Source: Chondrosia reniformis
Taxonomy: Eukaryota; Porifera; Demospongiae; Chondrillida; Chondrillidae
Direction: 5' to 3'
Assembly: GCA_947172415.1 (NCBI GenBank)
Contig: OX359191.1
Span: 2,046,001 to 2,110,000 of the forward strand
DNA length: 64,000 bases
The position numbers were made by a program, and so were the translations under genes. The notes under the pieces were generated by a model that saw only the letters and a program-made list of their open reading frames with translations, was not told the origin of the DNA and did no database searches. Shown here in pieces: positions 31,501 through 62,000 of this stretch. The first letter of the stretch is position 1. The number at the start of each line of letters is the position of its first letter.

Positions 31501-34500
31501 CACATGAAGTAGGACTGAAGCCCCAGTTAGGCGGACAATCAGCAAGATACCTCATTAATGTTAAAACTCTGTGAGTACCATATATATGTAGGTGCATTTA
31601 TCTCATCATTTGACTCTGGATTTTACCCCACCCACTCATGTCTCCTTAAGGAGTGCAATGAACAAAGGGTGGAACTGATGTTCTCTTGAGTATGGCATAC
31701 AATGGAAGTTTCGAGTAGCTATCTGCTGGTAAGTATTCCAAAAGCTAAAAAGCTCTTGTGGTTTCCTTATCAGCAGATAAGGGATACAGCCAAAGTGGCT
31801 GATCACTAAATATAAAAATAGGGTTTAAGATCTGATGGATGGCTTTGATATCCTCATAATTTGATTCCAGGATTTTACCCCACCCACTCATGTCTTCTGA
31901 GGAAGTCAATGATCTAATGGGTGAAACCAAAGTCTACTACTTAATGGGAACTAGTATCCCCTTAGCCACTCAAAAGGACGATTGGACTATTTTATCCTTA
32001 TTTAGGACTCATCAGTAATAGTATACGATGGAAGTGTGTCTACACTGCTCATAAGTACTCCCAAATGCTAAAAACTTGTGGTTTCCTTATAAGAATGATA
32101 AGGGTAAAGGCTAATAGTAGACACTATAACTGTAAGTATACAAAAAACATGAGAACTATAAAATACAATAAAATATCACTGGAAATACAGTAGTCAAAAT
32201 CACTGGAAATATATAGTGGCTGGACACGGTCAGTATGACCTTTATTCTGCCATCTGTAGTTGCACCATATCAATCACATTTAACATTTGCATACATAGTG
32301 CTCCATTAAATGAGATTGCTTTAGAAAACATTGACAGTGGAGCACAATTAAACAAAAAGGTGGACATAATCATTCATCAGCCCTTCTGTACCTCTGTTGC
32401 AATGTATGTTGGTCGCACATACAGTGAGCACCCCTCCTTATCTGGTATCCACTGCTGATCCACTTTTATGAGCTCTTGGATACACGACAAAAACTCTTGC
32501 TTGTCAAATGCCTGCAGAGAGAGTGCAATATCAAGTTCAGAGTTCAGATGAGCCAGCAGAACCAGACACTTTGGACAAGGGACTAACGGGAAGACTGAGA
32601 GCAACTGCAGAATCACTCAACCTTTTCATGTTCTCCATTGGACGAAACATTCGGATGACACCATCTTTACCTCTAAACGCCTTCATTCCCTCAAATGCCT
32701 ACCACATTCAAACACACTCAAATATAACAATTCAATAAGGAGCCAGTGTGTACTATATTCAGTAGTGCCACAGCGTGGGTCTCTTGTATACGTACTTAGG
32801 GTGAGTGAGACACTTTAGTTTACATATACGTACAGTGTTAGTATTTAGCAAGGGGGGGGCAAATTGCCCCCTCTGCTCCCCCTTGAAAGAAACCCTGCAT
32901 GTATATTTTGTATAACATTCAGATCTTCAGACTCTGTACAAGTAAGAGTTTAATTCTTTTACAAGGGAGGTGATACAATACAGTAAATATTATAGGGGCA
33001 GCCAAGTTCAGTGTTTGTTTTCTAATTTTACCTTCTTGTGGAAAATTTTTTAAGACAAATACCCATCCCCCTGCCCCCTGAAAGAAAATAATTGCAAAGT
33101 AGAAAAACAAAATCAGAATAAAAAATACTTTATATAGTGTAACATTCCACAGTACAGATGAGACAGTCTTTGGCTATCTTTGCACTTAAAACTTGACAAA
33201 CGATTAATAAAAATGACAATAACCTAGTAACATGGATGATTGAAAAACATTTGAACTCTAAATACACTAACTTGTATCCCATAGTGCAGTGCACTAACTC
33301 CTGGATGTAGAGATAGGTTTTGCAATGGCTTAACCTCTGGTGATCCCCATCCACTTTCTCTGTTCCACTCAACAGCCAGCATGTGATCAGAGAAGGTGCT
33401 GCCAAAGACCAGCTTATCGGGAGGTGGGACTGCCTTGGGCTCTGCAATACGAGTTACCTTTAACTCAGATACCTACAGTGAATTTCACAGGTACCATACA
33501 TACGTAGATAAATATTATCACTACATACTGTTGTTCATTCTACAGGCTTTATCCATACCTTGAAAATATCTCTGTAGCCTGAGGTAGAGTAGAACATCTT
33601 CCAAATCTGGAGGGAACACATCAATCTAAAGTCACAACTTAAATGGATCAGATGGGTTGGTAGAACAAAACTACAATTTCAGCTATAGGTAATTGATAAA
33701 TAATTTTTATCTAAAGTAAGGAGAGTAGCAATTTACATTATGTATGACACTGTAATTACATATATACATATCTTCAGAACTTCACACTAATTTGACATTT
33801 CAGTACTATGCTAGCAGCGAACCGTTTCAAACACTTCAGAAAATTATTAAATGCTTCGCAGTGTCATTAAATATGACAAATGCAATATTCCTAGAACGAC
33901 TTTGATTTTACAATTGTTACTACTGAACACACTGATGGACTGTAGAATAATACCTCTTGGTTTGAAAAGCCGTCTAGCAATGTTAATATTATAGATTGCA
34001 ATGCTACTGCTTGTGCATGTGAGAGCCTTCAATACAAGGCTTGCGAGAGCCCTCAATACAAGGCTTGCGAGAGCCTTCAATACAAGGCTTGCGAGAGCCT
34101 TAAATACATGGCTTGCGAGAGCCTTCAATACAAGGCTTGCGAGAGCCTTCAATACATGGCTTGCGAGAGCCTTCAATACATGGCTTGCGAGAGCCTTCAA
34201 TACAAGGCTTGCGAGAGCCTTCAATACAAGGCTTGCGAGAGCCTTCAATACAAGGCTTGCGAGAGCCTTCAATACAAGGCTTGCGAGAGCCTTCAATACA
34301 AGGCTTGCGAGAGCCCAAAGCTGTTAGGGACAGATATGCGTAAATCGCTTGTACGATTACGCTTATCCATTACAAATTACTATAGAAATGTGCATTAAGC
34401 TCATAAGATTTGCTCATACAACAGGCCTCCAATTAGAGTTCTAGGACTGACTTTTTGACTGCGAAAACGGATTCCCAACTGCTTGCTTATATAACGTACT

Positions 34501-52000: not shown

Positions 52001-55000
52001 TTTTATTGGTCGTCCTGCAAGGTTATTCAAAACCCATTTGGAACTTCATCATACCAGCTAACCACTCTAACTTGCCCATAGAGTGGACTCGCCCATAGAG
52101 CGGACTCACCCATAGAGCGGACTCACCTATAGAGCGGACTCGCCCATAGAGCGGACTCGCCCATAGAATGGACTCAACTATAGAGCGGACTCACCCATAG
52201 AGCGGACTCACCTATAGAGCGGACTCGCCCATAGAGCGGACTCGCCCATAGAGCGGACTCGCCCATAGAATGGACTCAACTATAGAGCGGACTCGCCCAT
52301 AGAGCGGACTCGCCCATAGAGCGGACTCGCCCATAGAGCGGACTCGCCCATAGAGCGGACTCGCCCATAGAGCGGACTCGCCCATAGAGCGGACTCGCCC
52401 ATAGAGCGGACTCGCCCATAGAGCGGACTCACCCATAGAGCGGACTCACCTATAGAGTGGATTCTTGCAAAGATTGCTGGTAGCAATTACAGCCATATAC
52501 TCACAAGTGGTCATTTCTGAAATATAAACCATCTTAACAGGGACAGGAGTAACACATAAAATAATTAGATAATTGTGGGAGATTGTTAGTTGCATTATTG
52601 CTAACTTCAAAAGGGGCACTTTCATAGCAAATGAAGCGAACTTTAGTTAGTCGTGTTAGTGATGTTAAATCGCACCGGGTGCCTGCAGTCAGAGTGATCT
52701 CATAGTAGGGGTAGTTTACACCGTTGTAGTACCACGTCCTGATTTTCTAAAAGAGGTTTCAAAAGTAATAAAATGTAAAAGAAAGCCAATCTGTTTTTAA
52801 AAGTTAGTGTTGCTTACTGAGTCGGTCTTGTCACTGGCCTGGTCCCTATTCTTTACATGATACCCAAGAATATATTCTGTCACTCTTTTAAACTAATAAA
52901 AAGTTTACAAATTGTACAGTGAAGGCTATACTCAACAATCACTTGACACATACATATGCCCATATTAAAAGTGGTCGCTAGGGAAGACTCCTAAATACAA
53001 ATAAATATTACATACAGAGGTGATCTAAGCAATGCCTGATCTATTATCAAACATGACTGACTGAGTTCATGGATTATGCATTCCATTCCAAACAGTGCAA
53101 GTACTGAGATGACTAAGTAAGCAACGAGCAAAGAACACCTCATGGGCCGGGGAATATCGGTGTACTCAGGTATGGCTATGCGGTTATGTGCGCAAACAGG
53201 TTCAAAAAGTAAGAAATGAAAAAGGAAATTCTCATCAAAGCCACATCTTCAAAACCTTCTAAATTCCAAAGGATGATGTCGATAAAAGAACTTCATGTTT
53301 GAGTTGCATTAAGACAAACCCACATTCTTTTTTAAAACTTCATTAACAGACATTACTAGGAGAATGTACATATTCTGAGGTGAGCCTTGCAATCTCACAG
53401 CATTAAACACATTAGTAGACACACTTTGAGTGTATAGTAATCATCTGGGCAAGTGGCAGCCATATTGTTGATTGCATTAGGCACCGTAAGACCAGCCTTT
53501 CCAAGACAAAGGAAGCCATTGTGTGGCCCTCCGTGGCCCTCCATGGCCTAAAAGGTCGTATATATAAACACAAAACTGCAGCCTACGAACCATTAAGGGT
53601 GGGCTTGCTTCTGACTTGATACTCAACATGTCACACTGAATGGAGCATGTGATCACATTACCCCTCTAGTATATGGTTGCTAGGATACGCCTGAAGAAGA
53701 AGTAGTTGATTTGTTGTGGTGGTAAAAATGCCAGTAAATGGTGCAAGACATGCTGATTTGCAAGATAACAATGTTTTCTTCAGGTGTATCCTAGCAACCA
53801 TATACCAGAGGGGTAATGTCATCACATGTGCCATTGGAGATGCTTGAGACACCCACGCAAAGGCGCAGAGAGAGTTTTACAGGAAGCCTAGCTGTAAGGG
53901 AGGAGGGAGAGTCGGCTAAACATCTGTACAAAAAGGATGTTATCAACTATATTTGCGGGAAGAATATAGAGTCAGCAGCAAAGGAAAAGAGAGACTAAGT
54001 CTGTTACGAGGGTTGCACGTGCTGGTGCATCCTTCTTGCTACCGAAAAGGTGGTTGTTGCAAAGGATGACATGCACTTCCTTTGCTTCTTCTGCTCAACC
54101 AACCTTTGATGCGGTGGCAAGCCCTTTTAGAGAGGTCAGCTGTAAAGTGACTACAGAAGTGCAGGAAAGTCTAAGCTCTTTACAGGAGGAAAAGGCAGTT
54201 ATAATCGATGAATTGACACAAAGGACTGAAGAAAGATGTGTGGAAATTAGAACTCCAATCGACAAATTGGAGAGCACAAGCATTGAGATAAAGAAGCAAG
54301 GAAGGTTTGTTGGTAAAGATGCTGAAGTGGAAATGATACTGACTTCTGGCACTTTGAATTCAGCAGAGGCCAAGAAGAAAGAAGGGAATTAGAAAGTTGT
54401 GGGGGACAGGCAGGCTAAGAAATGTAAATCAGATCCAAAAAGAAATTGGTGCCTGCATTGGTACTGACAAAGCAAGGAGGGTAAAAGTAGAAATAATTTT
54501 CAAGAGACAGAATGGTAAATATATATGGACTATTGAAGATTGGAAAGGTTAAAGAGCTGGTTTGGGGCTACATAAAGGACTAAAAGGAAGATGTATGTAT
54601 GCATTAAGCGGTGTGTATGTTGTATGGGAGTGATAATCAAAACTGTTACTGTATAGAACTGGTGTCAGTGTTTATTGTAGTCCTGCATGGGGCAAAATTT
54701 ATCCGTAGTGTGCAACTGCACACAATGCACTTACATAAATCATTAATAACAATAATGTATATCCATCATAAGTATGTAATTGAAGTGATAGTCAAATCAA
54801 ATCACAAGTAATCATTTCAAGACATCATGAAGAGGGAAAAACATGAAAGAAGCAACTGCTGGGAATCAAACTCAGGACAGCTGGTTATGACTATCAGTGC
54901 TCTGTCACTGAGATACAATTGCCACAGCAATGCCTCCCTCATGTTTCCTCTCTTATACTAAGTAAGACTATGTAATTAGTCTCTAATAGTGGCAGCACAG

Positions 55001-56240
55001 TCTTCAGAACACGAGCTGATAAGCAACTGTAATGTAAGTAGCTACGTACCTGTGTTCCAGGCTGATCTTCATGAAACTGCCGAACATACTTTCCATGGCA
55101 AAATTCATAGCTCCAGTACATTTCATTCTTTGTTGTGCAAATGTTTTCAAAGGGTGACAGCAGTTTCTGGGGACTGACATCCTAAAGCAACATTTAACAG
55201 GCAGATATACAAATGAAATGATTAATGGATATATTAAGGAGTACTGTCACGAAAAACGGTCCGAGGCCAAACGTGATCTGGGCGGACCATTTATGGTTGG
55301 CAAAAATTGGTCCCCCTGGCAATAACTAGTCTGAAGTGATATCTGCACTCCTGCAGCACTCAATACCATAAATCTACCTTGGTACTAATACTACAGACTG
55401 TAATTAAGGAATATCCTTACTATGTTTGTATTATTGTAACTTCCCATGAGTTGTATATCATGTTTCACTGTAGCTACTAGTCTTCTGCATGCATATATTG
55501 TCATGATATAGCTATATAGCTATTCAGACATCAAAACTGGTTCACTCAGGACTGCATTTGGCTGCCAAAATTTGCCCCCAGACCACTTTTGGCGAGGTAG
55601 GACAACTTTTGGCAGCAAAACGTGGTCCGGGGTGGACCAGTTTTGGCTGCCAAAACTTGTCCAGGCGGTCCAAACGGACCACTTCTGGCCAGGACCACTT
55701 TAATATCGCATGACAGTTCATGTGTGGGTGTCTTGACTGTAGCCTCATCAGCTAACCTCCTTCGGCTCTTCACTGTCCTTGCTGGGAACTGGCATGTTCG
55801 GCACTTGCCTAGAGTATCTACACGTGTATTGCTCCTGCTGGGAAGTTACTACAAACATTTCTTCCATGCCATCAGCATCTTCAGCTTCCTGCACATGTAA
55901 GATAAAGAAAGAATGTCACCTTCTGCACGTGCAAACTCTTAAGAAGGTTACAATGTATAGCTTAACACGCAACAGAAATCTGATCATGACGATGACACTT
56001 TATACCATCTATAAAACTAAAAGGACAATTCATAACAGTCCAAAGTAACAGTCCAAATAAGATGTAGTACATTACTATACACATGCAAACCTCTTCCTGT
56101 AAGACTTTGTCATAGGATCCCGGCCACTCCATGATGTAAGGTATGGAATCTTCGAACGGATTGGGAATGCCATCAGAAACAGTTGACTGACTAGGAAACA
56201 CTGAAACACAAAATAGTACAAGACACAATAAAACGGCCAT
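49072..56240 (-). CDS. ERLEC1: ER lectin with two MRH domains
   Basis: ERLEC1 (XTP3-B) recognises mannose-trimmed glycans in ER-associated degradation with SEL1L-HRD1. Exons are 56240-56091, 55888-55757, 55181-55050, 52892-52818, 52746-52606, 52532-52450, 51666-51610, 51541-51463, 51156-51067, 50485-50319, 49991-49914, 49699-49633 and 49143-49072. They give 440 residues. A signal peptide (MAVLLCLVLFCVSVF) opens the protein. MRH 1 has YEFCHGKYVRQFHE, GTRCDL and VRFICYE. MRH 2 has WWKFEICYGRFIKQFH, HYYSNGDFCDETGKKRDV and a Cys restored by the chosen acceptor at 49699. The C-terminus (VESGAFCKLMDDADEHGL) matches the family end. The acceptor of exon 12 was chosen to keep the conserved Cys. Exon 6 abuts a minisatellite. 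Confidence 0.93.
49144..49632. other. Last ERLEC1 intron
   Basis: Near 49455-49600, AGTGGAACCTATCTAT and an inverted GATAGGTTTGGAGCC suggest an old DNA-transposon remnant. AGTGGAACCTCTC also occurs at 46755. Nothing else is recognisable. Confidence 0.35.
52074..52459 (-). repeat. 17-bp minisatellite copying a splice donor
   Basis: About 22 copies of a 17-bp unit, on the minus strand GAGTCCGCTCTATGGGC or variants CTCTATAGGTGAGTCCG. The copy nearest ERLEC1 exon 6 includes the last 8 exon bases (CTCTATAG) and the donor GTGAGT. Other units carry GTGAGT or GCGAGT. Confidence 0.95.
53646..53828. mobile_element. MITE with about 53-bp terminal inverted repeats
   Basis: CATGTGATCACATTACCCCT at the left recurs inverted at the right end, and the match continues through TATGGTTGCTAGGATACGCC and CTGAAGAA. 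Only a few mismatches occur. It is 183 bp, non-coding, in an ERLEC1 intron. Confidence 0.9.
53830..54560 (+). pseudogene. Broken open frames, possible transposon ORF1
   Basis: Frames around 53830-53998 (RRRESFTGSLAVREEGES) and 54036-54392 (ASPFREVSCKVTTEVQESL, LTQRTEERCVEIRTPIDKLE) are charged, coiled-coil-like and separated by stops. They lie in an ERLEC1 intron on the opposite strand. No known motif is visible. A decayed retroelement first ORF is the best guess. Confidence 0.35.
54852..54922 (-). tRNA. tRNA-like pseudogene or tRNA-derived SINE head
   Basis: The minus strand folds as a 71-nt cloverleaf. A 7-bp acceptor stem pairs GCAATTG with CAGTTGC. The D-arm/A box is TATCTCAGTGACAGAGC. 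The anticodon loop is AGTCATA, and the T-arm/B box is CTGAGTTTGATTCCCAG. Mismatches occur in the D, anticodon and T stems, and U33 is replaced by G, so it is unlikely to work as a tRNA. There is no CCA or clear T-run terminator. Confidence 0.5.
55232..55710. repeat. TGGTCC/GGACCA-rich inverted-repeat region
   Basis: AACGGTCCGAGGCCAAACGT and GGCGGACCATTT at the left resemble inverted text at 55600-55710 (TTTTGGCTGCCAAAA, GGCGGTCCAAACGGACC). It is probably a MITE with internal repeats, in an ERLEC1 intron. Confidence 0.5.
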
Positions 56241-56448
56241 TTTACTGCGATACCACAAATGTTCTCGGGGGCTAAACGCATACAGGAACAGCAAAGCGAA
56301 GTCATACCAGTCAAATTAATGAATTCCATTTTAGATTCCATTTAGAAATGAGTTACTGCTATCGTTAATACAAAGGAAAATGAAGTAAATATTAAGGATA
56401 AACAACAATTAAAAGTCACCAATCCATCAACTTAATAAAACTACAAAT

Positions 56449-58958
56449 TCAAAATACTAAAATGTCATCAATAACAGTGACATATATCAGTCCATGTTTG
56501 TCAACAGCCAGATCGTAAGCACTTGAGGATGTATCAACTGTCCTGTCTGGCTTGAAGCTGCGAACCAGCTCTCCATCTGCAGTATGGATAGTGATATTTG
56601 ATCTATTCCAGTAAGAGAGCACTACATAGTTGTCTGGAGTGACTGCAATCACGGCTGGCTGGCCGTTAACTTGAAATTTCCTGACACGTTTCCCATTCAA
56701 CCTAAACACTTGAACACACTCGTTGCTTGAGTCACTCACATACAACAGCCCATGAGGGCTCACAGTAATGTCTGCAGGTTTTCGGAAATCACCAAAAATA
56801 CTTTCAAAGTGGCCACTTGTGCTGAATACAAACACACAGCCATCACGGTTATCCACAATATAGACCTTATCTCCGGCTACAGTCAGACCATAGGGAGATG
56901 CCATTTTGTCAATGTCATCACTATTACTGCAAATGATCTTTCTGTAAGTGCCAGTGGAACTGAAAACGATAATTCGTCCATTTAGTGCATCAGAAGCAAA
57001 AATGTCTCCTTGTTCACTGATGGCTACTCCATTCATCAACCCACCAAATCTTCCATAACCAAAGTTTTGCTGGACTGCCCCACTCTTGGAGTCTATGGAC
57101 ACCAATCGATGGTTCAAAACATCAGCCGCCACAATATTCCCACTCGGTGACACAGCTAAAGCACTCAACTTTTTCCCTGGAACACGAATGATCCTTTGAT
57201 GACTCCCGATCTCCGACCACTTCCTTAGCTACAAAATAAAACATACATACTTTTGAGATCATAAAAACAGCCAATCACAATATAAACAAAAATGACATTT
57301 CCTTTCCATTGAGTGAAATATTCCCATAAGACATAGAGTTCATTATCATTTCACTGTACACGTATGTACCTATACCATTTTCCTTCTCTGTTAAATGCTT
57401 AGTAGTTTCAAATCTCTACACTGACATACATAGTACATAATAAGCAATATACATATGTATAAACACCACTAACCTGATTGCTGCTAAGTGATCTATCAGG
57501 TGAGGTTGCAACTGGACTTGGAGTTGTTACTAGACTGCCATCTAAGGAGTCATGATGAAGGATGGCACCAACTTCCTGAAGACTTGCATTTTCTTCTTTT
57601 AAAACTGCAAATTCATTTTTCAGTTTGTTAATGTCCCTTGAAAACATTGATGCTTCTTCTTTTGACTCAAAGAGCTCGTCTTCTAACTGAGTACATCTTC
57701 CTTTAAAGTAAGTACAATCGCCTTCTAACTGAGTACATCTTCCTTTAAAGTAAGCACAATCGCCTTCCAACTGAGTACATCTTCCTTTAAAGTGAGCACA
57801 ATCATCTTCTAAAAGAGTACACTTTCTTTCAAAACATGTACACCTTTCATTTACATTGGATAACTCCTGTTCCTTGGATGCCAGAGTAGCTACTTTCTCA
57901 CTGAATAATTTCTTGGCATGCCTTAAATCTTCCTGCAAAGAAATATTTTGCTCTTGAATATTGGCTTTCTCTCTTTGCAGATCCCAAATGCTATCCTTAA
58001 GTATATCTATACGTTCCAGGTACTTCTCTTTAATTGAAGTGACTACAGTTTCAGTTTCTCCTGATTTCTGGCTTTTCATTATCACAGACTCTGCCTGCTT
58101 AAGGTGAACTAGCAATTCATTACTAGTAGGTCGAATAGCTGGATCATTTTCCAAACAATCTTGTATAATTTTTAAATAGAGTGCCTCATCTTGTCTGCTG
58201 ATCATTGCAATTTGACACTGACGGCGTTTGTACTCGGAAAGAGCTTCCAGCTTCCCTCCAACAAACTTTGTTGGTGCATCAAGCTGAGGCCATTGGTGTG
58301 TCAGAATCATCAATAGACAGTTCCCAAAGGAGAAGACGTCCAGCTTTTCGTTGTACACGGGAGGATCCTTGAGTGCTTCTGGTGACATGAAGGCCATAGT
58401 ACCCTTGACTGATGAGCGGCGTGTGAGAGCTTGGCTGTCAATCATACGTGCCATTCCAAAATCTGTTACTTTAGTTTGCATTGTATCTATGTCTATGAGT
58501 ATGTTATTTGGAGACAGGTCGTGATGCACCAGTGGAGGAACACGACTGTGCAGGTAGCACAGGGCCTGCGTCACCTGAACCATTACACGAACTTTCGAAC
58601 GGGCAGAGAATTCCGCAGGACTGTTAGCTTCCAAATACATACGCAAAGAGGTGTCCATTTTCTCCAGAATACAGGTTGGGGCAATGGAACCACTCTCGTA
58701 ATACAATCCAAGCAGTAGGACAATGTTGGGATGGCGTAAAGCGGCCCAAATTTGGCACTCTTTTTCAAAATCCCGTATCAACTTGTCTCTTTGCCGACAG
58801 GGGACATCTTGAAGAAATATGTCGTGAAGTTGCTTTGCAGCGCACACGGTACCAAACCATTCAGCTTCTAAAACCTTTCCATATGCACCTCTCCCAAGCG
58901 GTTTGCCTGTAAATTGGATTCCCTCAACTCTGAGACCACGATCTGCATTCGACTCCAT
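56449..58958 (-). CDS. Protein kinase - coiled coil - NHL propeller fusion
   Basis: Two exons, 58958-57474 and 57228-56449, join in phase 0 to give about 754 residues. Residues about 14-290 are a protein kinase of tyrosine-kinase-like type. The Gly loop is GRGAYG (22-27), the Lys is in CAAKQL (42), the alpha-C Glu is at 67, HHDLSPNN (145-152) replaces HRDxxxxN, and DFG (166-168) and SPE (192-194) follow. All residues needed for catalysis are present. Residues about 300-470 form a coiled coil with about 3.5 copies of a 14-residue repeat (CTQLEGDCAYFKGR). The second exon encodes NHL-type beta-propeller repeats (VSPSGNIVAADVLNHRL, GVAISEQGDIFASDALN, ITVSPHGLLYVSDSSN). There is no membrane segment. 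A scaffolded signalling kinase is inferred. It starts 68 bp from IF1 on the other strand. Confidence 0.88.
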
Positions 58959-59026: not shown

Positions 59027-62000
59027 ATGAGCAGATTCTACAGAATTTCGCTGCTAGCAAGACCTGGATTGCGCTGGCTTTCTGATGCTCCTGGAAAGGT
59101 ATGTTTAAGGGAACTTTTCAATCTATCAATGCTCTTTTGATTCTGGTCTTTGGCAATACCGTTTTCATCCCTCACTTGGCTGAATAGCTAGTCCTCACCG
59201 GTCCCAAATAGTAATTATTTTTAGCATGAAATGTTTGTTTCTAAGTTAAGGTTTATGTGATAGTGTTATTATATACCTAAAATGGATCATTCTCAACGAA
59301 GCGACAGTAATTTTACTGTGCCATTCTGCATGGTATTAAGTCATCCATTTTATTGAAAGAATGTCTTTGGTAGAACATGCACGACCCATCTCTGCTATTG
59401 TGTACTTTATATTCAAATTTTATTTTGCTACCCTCCTTTTTAGTTAACTGAGGTTTATCAATCTTTAACTGAATCTGTATGTGTGCAGCTGTACTGCAAG
59501 TACCTACATTAATGTATGTTAACATGATGTCTGTTTTATTTATGCAGGGAGGAGGTGGAAGTGGGTCTGTCAGGTGAGCAACCTTAAATGTTCAAGTTGC
59601 ATGTGCTGCATTGTTACCCTTTTTTTCACTAAACATGTCAAAATATATACTTATTTGGTGTGGGTGAATGTTAAGGTATTGGTGGACGTGTGGTAATATA
59701 TACTTATTTGGTGTGGGTGAATGTTAAGGTATTGGTGGACGTGTGGTAATATATACTTATTTGGTGTGGGTGAATGTTAAGGTATTGGTGGACGTGTGGT
59801 AATATATACTTATTTGGTGTGGGTGAATGTTAAGGTATTGGTGGACATGTGGTAATATATACTTATTTGGTGGGTGAATGTTAAGGTATTGGTGGACGTG
59901 TGGTAATATATACTTATTTGGTGTGGGTGAATGTTAAGGTATTGGTGGACGTGTGGTAATATATACTTATTTGGTGGGTGAATGTTAAGGTATTGGTGGA
60001 CGTGTGGTAATATATACTTATTTGGTGTGGGTGAATGTTAAGGTATTGGTGGACGTGTGGTAATGTATACTTATTTGGTGGGTGAATGTTAAGGTATTGG
60101 TGGAGCTGTGGTAATATATACTTATTTGGTGTGGGTGAATGTTAAGGTATTGGTGGACGTGTGGTAATATATACTTATTTGGTGTGGGTGAATGTTAAGG
60201 TATTGGTGGATATGTGGTAATGTATACTTATTTGGTGTGGGTGAATGTTAAGGTATTGGTGGACGTGTGGTAATGTATACTTATTTGGTGTGGGTGAATG
60301 TTAAGGTATTGGTGGACGTGTGGTAATGTATACTTATTTGGTGGGTGAATGTTAAGGTATTGGTGGAGCTGTGGTAATATATACTTATTTGGTGTGGGTG
60401 AATGTTAAGGTATTGGTGGACGTGTGGTAATATATACTTATTTGGTGGGTGAATGTTAAGGTATTGGTGGACGTGTGGTAATATATACTTATTTGGTGTG
60501 GGTGAATGTTAAGGTATTGGTGGACGTGTGGTAATATATACTTATTTGGTGTGGGTGAATGTTAAGGTATTGGTGGATATGTGGTAATGTATACTTATTT
60601 GGTGTGGGTGAATGTTAAGGTATTGGTGGACGTGTGGTAATGTATACTTATTTGGTGTGGGTGAATGTTAAGGTATTGGTGGACGTGTGGTAATGTATAC
60701 TTATTTGGTGGGTGAATGTTAAGGTATTGGTGGAGCTGTGGTAATATATACTTATTTGGTGTGGGTGAATGTTAAGGTATTGGTGGACGTGTGGTAATAT
60801 ATACTTATTTGGTGGGTGAATGTTAAGGTATTGGTGGATATGTGGTAATGTATACTTATTTGGTGTGGGTGAATGTTAAGGTATTGGTGGACGTGTGGTA
60901 ATGTATACTTATTTGGTGTGGGTGAATGTTAAGGTATTGGTGGACGTGTGGTAATATATACTTATTTGGTGTGGGTGAATGTTAAGGTATTGGTGGACAT
61001 GTGGTAATATATACTTATTTGGTGGGTGAATGTTAAGGTATTGGTGGACGTGTGGTAATAGATACTTATTTGGTGTGGGTGAATGTTAAGGTATTGGTGG
61101 ACATGTGGTAATATATACTTATTTGGTGTGGGTGAATGTTAAGGTATTGGTGGACATGTGGTAATATATACTTATTTGGTGTGGGTGAATGTTAAGGTAT
61201 TGGTGGACATGTGGTAATATATACTTATTTGGTGGGTGAATGTTAAGGTATTGGTGGACGTGTGATAATATATACTTATTTGGTGTGGGTGAATGTTAAG
61301 GTATTGGTGGACGTGTGGTAATATATACTTATTTGGTGTGGGTGAATGTTAAGGTATTGGTGGACATGTGGTAATATATACTTATTTGGTGTGGGTGAAT
61401 GTTAAGGTATTGGTGGACATGTGGTAATATATACTTATTTGGTGGGTGAATGTTAAGGTATTGGTGGACGTGTGGTAATATATACTTATTTGGTGGGTGA
61501 ATGTTAAGGTATTGGTGGATGTCCATAGGGCTGCAGGTGGCAAGTTCAGTGAGAGGGAACAAGCACTGGAAGACCAGTACTTCAAGCGCAAAGCAAGTCT
61601 CTGTGTATACTGTTGGTAACTGGCTAGATTGTACATACGTATATGCAGGATTATTAACATAAATGGATAATTGTATGGAATGTTGTATAGGCTAATTCTA
61701 AAGTGAAGATTTGCTATATACTTATATAGTAGTTCTGATAGGATGCCAGTCTGACCCATCTATGGAACTGTACCCTCCTGTTTTGTTAGTATGTACCTCA
61801 CTTGAATTTGCACTACATTCTCACATTAAGCTTGTCCTTCTGTGGGCATTCAGAGTATGGTTGCCCTGTTTCATAGTCTCTGTAGTACCTCCATTTTGGA
61901 GGTCCATGACACAGAGTATGGCTGCCCTATTTCATAGGCTCTGTAGTACCTCCATTTTAAATCTTATAACAACTTTCCGCATATGTTTCAACAGTGACCT

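Follow-up and report, generated by a model that had tools for sequence, protein, structure and literature searches.

The locus described here raises the question of what a complete protein kinase domain is doing ahead of an NHL beta-propeller in an animal genome: whether the kinase is a working enzyme, whether the two domains belong to one protein, and where such a protein came from. The window (the whole stretch of 64,000 nucleotides that was analyzed) is C3:2046001-2110000 on chromosome 3 of the sponge Chondrosia reniformis. The genome searched has 117,379,552 bases in 15 sequences, and it has been described as 14 chromosomes and the mitochondrion, 117.37 Mb (PMC12181767). It gives 43 cathepsin-type matches; among these, the catalytic exons of 6 were inspected for silicatein, the mark of a siliceous sponge, and every one carries the catalytic Cys. 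C. reniformis has no siliceous spicules. We consider it probable that the locus is a two-exon gene for a cytosolic TKL-type kinase on the TRIM-NHL plan, in a large kinase-coiled coil family with varied tails.

Layout of the gene

The predicted gene lies on the minus strand, and its two exons encode a 754-residue product with a kinase domain, a long coiled coil, and a six-bladed NHL propeller. Exon 1 (57474..58958; 495 codons) holds the start codon, the kinase domain, the coiled coil, and a linker, and begins with an ATG at 58958 that has G at -3 and G at +4. The 245-base intron (57229..57473) is of the GT-AG type and in phase 0, with the donor CAG/GTTAGT after 57474 and the acceptor TTTTGTAG/CTA before 57228. 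Exon 2 (56449..57228; 259 codons plus the stop codon at 56449-56451) carries the propeller, as recognized by Pfam, PDB matches, AF2, and Foldseek. Among the four listed GT-AG combinations, 57474 to 57228 alone keeps the frame open. The original prediction had the coordinates, strand, and phase of this join right; its GT-AG sites are in phase, and the same domain order recurs at 17 other loci.

The domain search that had been proposed for the joined protein found both expected families in Pfam, PK_Tyr_Ser-Thr (4.7e-35, residues 18-285) and NHL (1.1e-16), along with Pkinase (1.8e-35). RING and B-box were absent among the 20 Pfam families listed at E values up to 0.1 for the 754-residue product, which is therefore not a TRIM protein, and Pfam found no Filamin domain in it. 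A hydropathy scan of the product revealed no transmembrane segment, the highest 19-residue mean being 1.39, and so agrees with the earlier description of a kinase lacking a membrane receptor part. An Rfam scan of the whole window gave no match at the gathering score.

Kinase domain

The protein kinase domain (58104..58907, minus strand; residues 18-285 by Pfam) is full, with the catalytic residues K42, D147, and D166-G168 in place; E67, HHD at 145-147, N152, DFG at 166-168, and SPE at 192-194 are also recognizable. AF2 on exon 1 alone gave no usable model of the kinase (pLDDT 26-54). A profile search of the PDB is led by CTR1 (1.4e-36), with TNNI3K, IRAK4, TAK1, and BRAF among the best, and the best relatives of known structure are eukaryotic. 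Chains of EGFR, a Janus-type kinase, and FGFR also stand high in this listing, interspersed with the TKL kinases, and for this reason the TKL type, taken from profile ranks rather than from a rooted reference tree, is a reading and not a proof.

A protein search of the genome turned up many relatives of the kinase, and the 20 regions read contain 21 kinase copies. NHL sequence lies downstream on the same strand in 17 of the 21, and there is none in L043, L048, L049, or L050. Together with the window gene there are thus 18 kinase-NHL copies, a count that excludes a probable broken 19th on the plus strand, where a kinase match with a stop (C11:2425734) is accompanied by an NHL fragment (C11:2427367). 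Compared with the window gene, the kinase domains of the other kinase-NHL copies are 38-56% identical and their NHL parts 19-31%.

In the alignment, K42, E67, N152, and D166-F167-G168 are invariant in all 18 copies, and the catalytic Asp147 is present in every copy but one, L058. The catalytic loop reads HHD in 16 copies, HRD in L052, and YRS in L058. It had been pointed out that the HHDLSPNN loop of the window keeps its Asp and Asn, and these are indeed present as Asp147 and Asn152; it had also been treated as a deviation, and it does differ from HRD, but within this family the catalytic loop normally reads HHD. The idea that HHD marks a dead enzyme was rejected.

The copy with YRS (L058:3357-4265) is likely a pseudokinase and, since it has lost the catalytic Asp, a noncatalytic role is possible for some copies. 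That loss also lends something to the idea that the kinase is mainly a scaffold, binding nucleotide or partners while signaling runs through the coiled coil and the propeller, which are binding modules. The idea is nonetheless an unlikely one, as the Lys, the catalytic Asp, and DFG are retained together in 17 of the 18 copies, and the silent-site pattern described next shows that copies on chromosome 11 share their catalytic core.

Probable sequence exchange on chromosome 11

The chromosome 11 group comprises L042, L044, L045, L046, L047, L053a, and L053b, with the pair L053a-L053b left out of the mean. Within this group the bins as far as residue 225 have mean silent divergences of 0.08-0.37, and those beyond it 0.64-0.78; the jump comes past the THEWPNP motif, still within exon 1. 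Against the group, six further members (the window copy among them) diverge by 0.61-0.79 at silent sites throughout, and the window copy has no visible part in the core exchange. The core (residues 101-223) was tested against the rest of the kinase domain (226-290), limits that were set after the divergence bins had been viewed. With L048 and L049 added, the core lies below the rest at p < 1e-3 in 27 of 36 pairs; seven of the other nine pairs have no difference, and L045-L048 and L046-L048 have a weaker one (p values of 1.1e-3 and 3.5e-3). The order is reversed in L053a-L053b, with an NHL dS of 0.09 against a kinase dS of 0.29.

The pattern indicates that gene conversion keeps the catalytic core of the chromosome 11 copies alike, with the rest near silent saturation. 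Low silent divergence could also come from synonymous-site constraint, imposed by an overlapping antisense gene or an RNA element, and antisense open frames do overlap part of the stretch in several copies. Constraint of that kind should show between chromosomes as well, and it does not: the same sites are equally divergent there, with median pS values of 0.75 for the core and 0.76 for the tail in 304 pairs. We therefore give constraint little credence and regard exchange between copies as the better reading. A core/rest difference is seen in 27 of the 304 different-chromosome pairs, the lowest cores being those with the Roc copies L032 and L034.

Exon join

The gene structure of these relatives bears on whether kinase and propeller form one protein, as had been claimed. 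In four of them (L039, L040, L041, and L044) the kinase, the coiled coil, and the NHL propeller lie in one uninterrupted frame of 628-729 amino acids from Met. In the remaining 13 of the 17 an acceptor AG opens the NHL reading, and its position and its phase (0) match those of the window gene. A good-scoring donor (donor score of at least 4) was found in six of these 13 two-frame paralogues, and the donors of L051, L052, L054, L055, L056, L057, and L058 were chosen by hand among in-phase GTs. An xRxW lead-in directly follows the junction in 11 of the 18 copies, including the intronless L044 and the window. The chance expectation of a same-strand NHL match within about 1.1 kb is roughly 0.001-0.003 per kinase, estimated from at least 200 NHL matches and 612 first-look candidates in 117 Mb.

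With the intron retained, the frame of the window gene stops after 21 further residues, giving a 516-amino-acid protein without NHL, a form that may also exist. Such a stop would fit two adjacent genes, a kinase-coiled coil gene ending in the intron and an NHL gene beside it. Against this, the TAG of the acceptor is an in-frame stop immediately before the NHL exon, and the first in-frame Met of that exon is residue 65, already within the propeller, so that a start of its own, which the original prediction had named as the case against the join, is unlikely. On this evidence, the single-frame paralogues, and the shared acceptor place we rejected two separate genes as very improbable; the join of the window exons, giving one gene, is supported by the predicted structures of its relatives.

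As to the intronless copies L039, L040, L041, and L044, the DNA upstream of L044 resembles that of L046 (75% identity over 122 bases, and shorter pieces). Since this upstream DNA is still common to both, precise intron loss is likelier for L044 than a retrocopy.

NHL propeller and its origin

AF2 on the NHL exon alone gave a model with a pLDDT of 81, a pTM of 0.83, and strands for six blades, and Foldseek matched this predicted propeller to the NHL domains of Drosophila Thin and human TRIM2, with TM scores by query length of 0.82-0.84. In a profile search of the PDB, TRIM2 (4.5e-76) leads, followed by Thin, TRIM3, TRIM71, and Brat, and PknD is reached at 3.8e-16. By profile and predicted fold the window propeller is thus six-bladed, of the TRIM type, and far from PknD.

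Descent or recent transfer from a bacterial PknD-type kinase-NHL receptor, for instance from a sponge symbiont, would agree with the N-to-C order of kinase then NHL described for PknD/Mbk (PMC1262709) and with the description of the sponge as a high-microbial-abundance type (PMC12181767), but it is the least probable of the readings weighed here and was rejected, as introns are present, the nearest kinases of solved structure are eukaryotic, the propeller profile is far nearer TRIM than PknD, there is no transmembrane segment, and the bacterial relatives are distant, the 80 listed of 96 relatives in contigs of other genomes all lying in bacterial-titled records and being at most 36% identical in the best segment. 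A search of viral contigs gave 45 pattern matches, none of which proved to be a relative.

The eukaryotic, TRIM-type propeller may itself have more than one source within the family. In the propeller tree, where eight rows are labeled TRIM (L001, L005, and L006 by Pfam, the others by eye, with L003 filling 27% of the columns), the propellers of the window and L057 fall with the TRIM propellers and apart from the other 16 kinase-NHL propellers, on a 100/100 branch. In 16% of 200 bootstrap trees the kinase-NHL propellers arise just once, and the window and L057 branches are long. When the L045 propeller was used as a genome query, the window propeller was not among the matches listed. Because the tree groups the window propeller with TRIM and L057 and away from the other 16, it may have been acquired separately from that of the main kinase-NHL group. 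Both copies share the intron place with the main group, and the window copy shares the xRxW lead-in as well; the shared intron place favors one NHL origin, and the tree mildly favors two.

In four young pairs the dN/dS of the NHL part is 0.40 (L039/L040), 0.81 (L039/L041), 0.45 (L040/L041), and 0.38 (L053a/L053b), pairs that are not independent, as three of them share sequences; these values indicate that the propellers are kept as proteins. According to the titles of the entries matched by Foldseek, the TRIM71 and Brat propellers bind RNA, and RNA is therefore a possible ligand of the window propeller. A protein would be no less likely a ligand, since the net charge of the window propeller is only +1 (-14 to +9 among its relatives).

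Wider kinase family and its tails

With the L042 kinase as query, 41 genomic places score at least 192 bits, at 41-100% identity, and three of them have internal stops. The window kinase, at 360.5 bits and 55% identity to L042, lies inside this family, the border of which is not sharp because the next rows (157 bits or less) run into other kinases. The window gene accordingly belongs to a set of about 41 related kinase loci, at least 18 of which are predicted to encode a kinase, a coiled coil, and NHL in that order; the sponge-lineage kinase-NHL combination of the original prediction stands, but not as a lone case. A further 26 kinase matches, which share 31-34% identity with L042, are densely arrayed at C14 595395-1137227.

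Flanks were read for 30 kinase copies (the window, the 21 region copies, and 8 further loci), and NHL, found in 18 of them, is the commonest tail among the readable family members as predicted from their sequences. For L028, L029, L032-L034, and L036-L038 these flanks cover about 1.5 kb only, so that a more distant NHL would escape. L033 has ankyrin repeats in frame with the kinase, and L032 a Roc/Ras domain by domain scan, the sequence of L034 being nearly identical to that of L032. Other domains occur in the frame that follows the kinase and are linked to it by position only: DUSP in L043 (above the cut-off) and L038 (below it), Cul7 in L049 (6e-21), Kelch in L036 (above the cut-off), IBR in L037 (just under it), and an A20-like finger in L028 (under it). 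No tail domain was seen in the flanks of L029, L048, and L050.

Placed on the kinase tree, the NHL label requires 9 changes, against a mean of 9.7 for shuffled labels, and 217 of 500 shuffles are as low; the starred branches force at least 3 changes. The tree fits repeated swapping of tails, with many of its forks open and its shape blurred by conversion.

TRIM-type frames exist separately in the same genome. The three that were scanned with Pfam all carry NHL, together with RING and a weak Filamin match in L001, with B-boxes and Filamin in L006, and with Filamin in the fragment L005. NHL matches occur in many further frames, about 740 residues long. At C2 181752-458501, where L005 sits, and at C9 7161192-7293483, single-frame NHL genes (about 740-780 residues) are grouped in large clusters.

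Coiled coil and Cys zipper

The predicted coiled coil (57555..58061, minus strand; residues ~300-468) is a long helix in the AF2 model of exon 1 alone (pLDDT 59-94), and the Pfam coiled-coil matches in the window protein are weak, all of them under the cut-off. That it is rich in Cys, as had been noted, is real: it has 9 Cys, eight of which (373, 380 ... 422) are spaced exactly seven residues apart and so fill eight consecutive heptad positions. Tandem-repeat and heptad analysis places this Cys zipper (residues 373-422) at 57675..57842 on the minus strand, and each heptad Cys is followed three residues later by L or F at the partner core position. The zipper is encoded by a 42-bp tandem repeat at 57676-57829. 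The same part of the 17 other kinase-NHL copies has 0-3 Cys each, and a Cys-rich coiled coil as a feature of the family was ruled out on this count. Speculatively, the zipper could give the window dimer a redox- or metal-dependent lock.

Proposed working

Most likely, we infer, the window protein is a cytosolic, dimerizing kinase that is aimed by its propeller. The predicted helix would form dimers or higher oligomers through the coiled coil, and the propeller, from its kinship with those of TRIM2, Thin, TRIM71, and Brat, would share the ability of TRIM-NHL propellers to bind a target, either protein or RNA. Crowding on the target might then let the kinases phosphorylate each other in trans and afterward a target-bound substrate, in analogy with IRAK4 and MLK. 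A shared kinase with varied tails is what the family displays, and the different tails would aim this one enzyme at different targets. On chromosome 11 the silent-site pattern would correspond to conversion that keeps the catalytic core alike while the tails diverge. The role of the window kinase as a "sensor" is an inference.

More tentatively, and with less than even confidence, we propose a sponge recognition system in which one kinase module with a conversion-homogenized core carries tails that can be swapped (NHL, Ank, Roc, DUSP, Cul7, Kelch, and IBR) and diversifying coiled coils and propellers, so that dozens of specificities would lead to one output, a kinase-based counterpart of a TRIM repertoire. 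In an animal so rich in bacteria, such a system may serve to recognize microbes; the idea of an immune role is a guess based on the number of copies, the diversity of tails, and conversion.

Relation to known systems

TRIM-NHL proteins have a coiled coil ahead of a C-terminal NHL. The window protein shares with the TRIM-NHL ligases (TRIM2, TRIM3, TRIM71, Thin, and Brat) the coiled coil before a C-terminal six-bladed NHL, and its propeller is nearest to theirs in sequence and fold; it differs in that a kinase stands where those ligases have RING and B-box, and Pfam finds no Filamin domain in it.

Bacterial kinases with NHL are known, and PknD/Mbk of Mycobacterium tuberculosis is described as having the kinase first and the NHL second, with a transmembrane segment and an outer propeller (PMC1262709). 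The window protein, in contrast, has a coiled coil, a eukaryotic-type kinase, a TRIM-like propeller, and an intron, and no transmembrane segment. The likeness that the original prediction drew to TRIM-NHL proteins and to PknD alike is borne out, in the type of propeller for the former and in the order of kinase then NHL for the latter.

IRAK, TNNI3K, MLK, LRRK, RIPK, and ANKK are animal TKL kinases with interaction tails. The window protein likewise joins a TKL-type kinase to interaction domains, and the sponge copies with ankyrin repeats or Roc/Ras in the kinase frame do the same. We know of no NHL tail on any of these animal TKL kinases, and of no animal example that combines TRIM-NHL and TKL-type parts. 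The predicted kinase-NHL gene is thus, to our knowledge, a new animal combination of parts that are known.

In sponges, NHL repeats are described as very abundant, and 705 kinases are given for Amphimedon (PMC3538665), although the parts of that source available to us do not place both in one protein. In the accessible portions of the open-license literature, including PMC8242945, PMC3503706, PMC3538665, PMC8662651, and PMC12716839, no kinase-NHL protein of a sponge or other animal is described; the portions of PMC8242945 mention NHL only in a figure legend.

An animal genome would in this case have built the kinase-plus-NHL plan of bacterial PknD from eukaryotic parts, following the TRIM design and placing a kinase at the catalytic end. 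The family amounts to a natural swap set, the same enzyme with different aiming domains, and its silent sites carry a clear mark of exchange limited to the catalytic core. Should the tails determine what the kinase phosphorylates, the family would be a ready system for studying how kinase specificity is rewired, and would make it possible to test what the large kinase and NHL expansions of sponges mean.

Surroundings in the window

A probable first exon of a divergent neighbor gene, seen by eye, lies at 59027..59098 on the plus strand, its ATG 69 bases from that of the window gene, which suggests that the two genes share a promoter region. Beside or inside this neighbor, a 53-bp unit is repeated about 36 times in tandem (59642-61519). 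Elsewhere in the window there are 12 copies of a 24-bp repeat at 34021-34315, open on both strands, and 23 copies of a 17-bp tandem repeat at 52070-52461. Directly downstream of the kinase-NHL gene, at ~55740-56315 on the minus strand, a possible small gene with a signal-peptide-like start (MAVLLCLVLFCVSVFPSQS...) was seen by eye.
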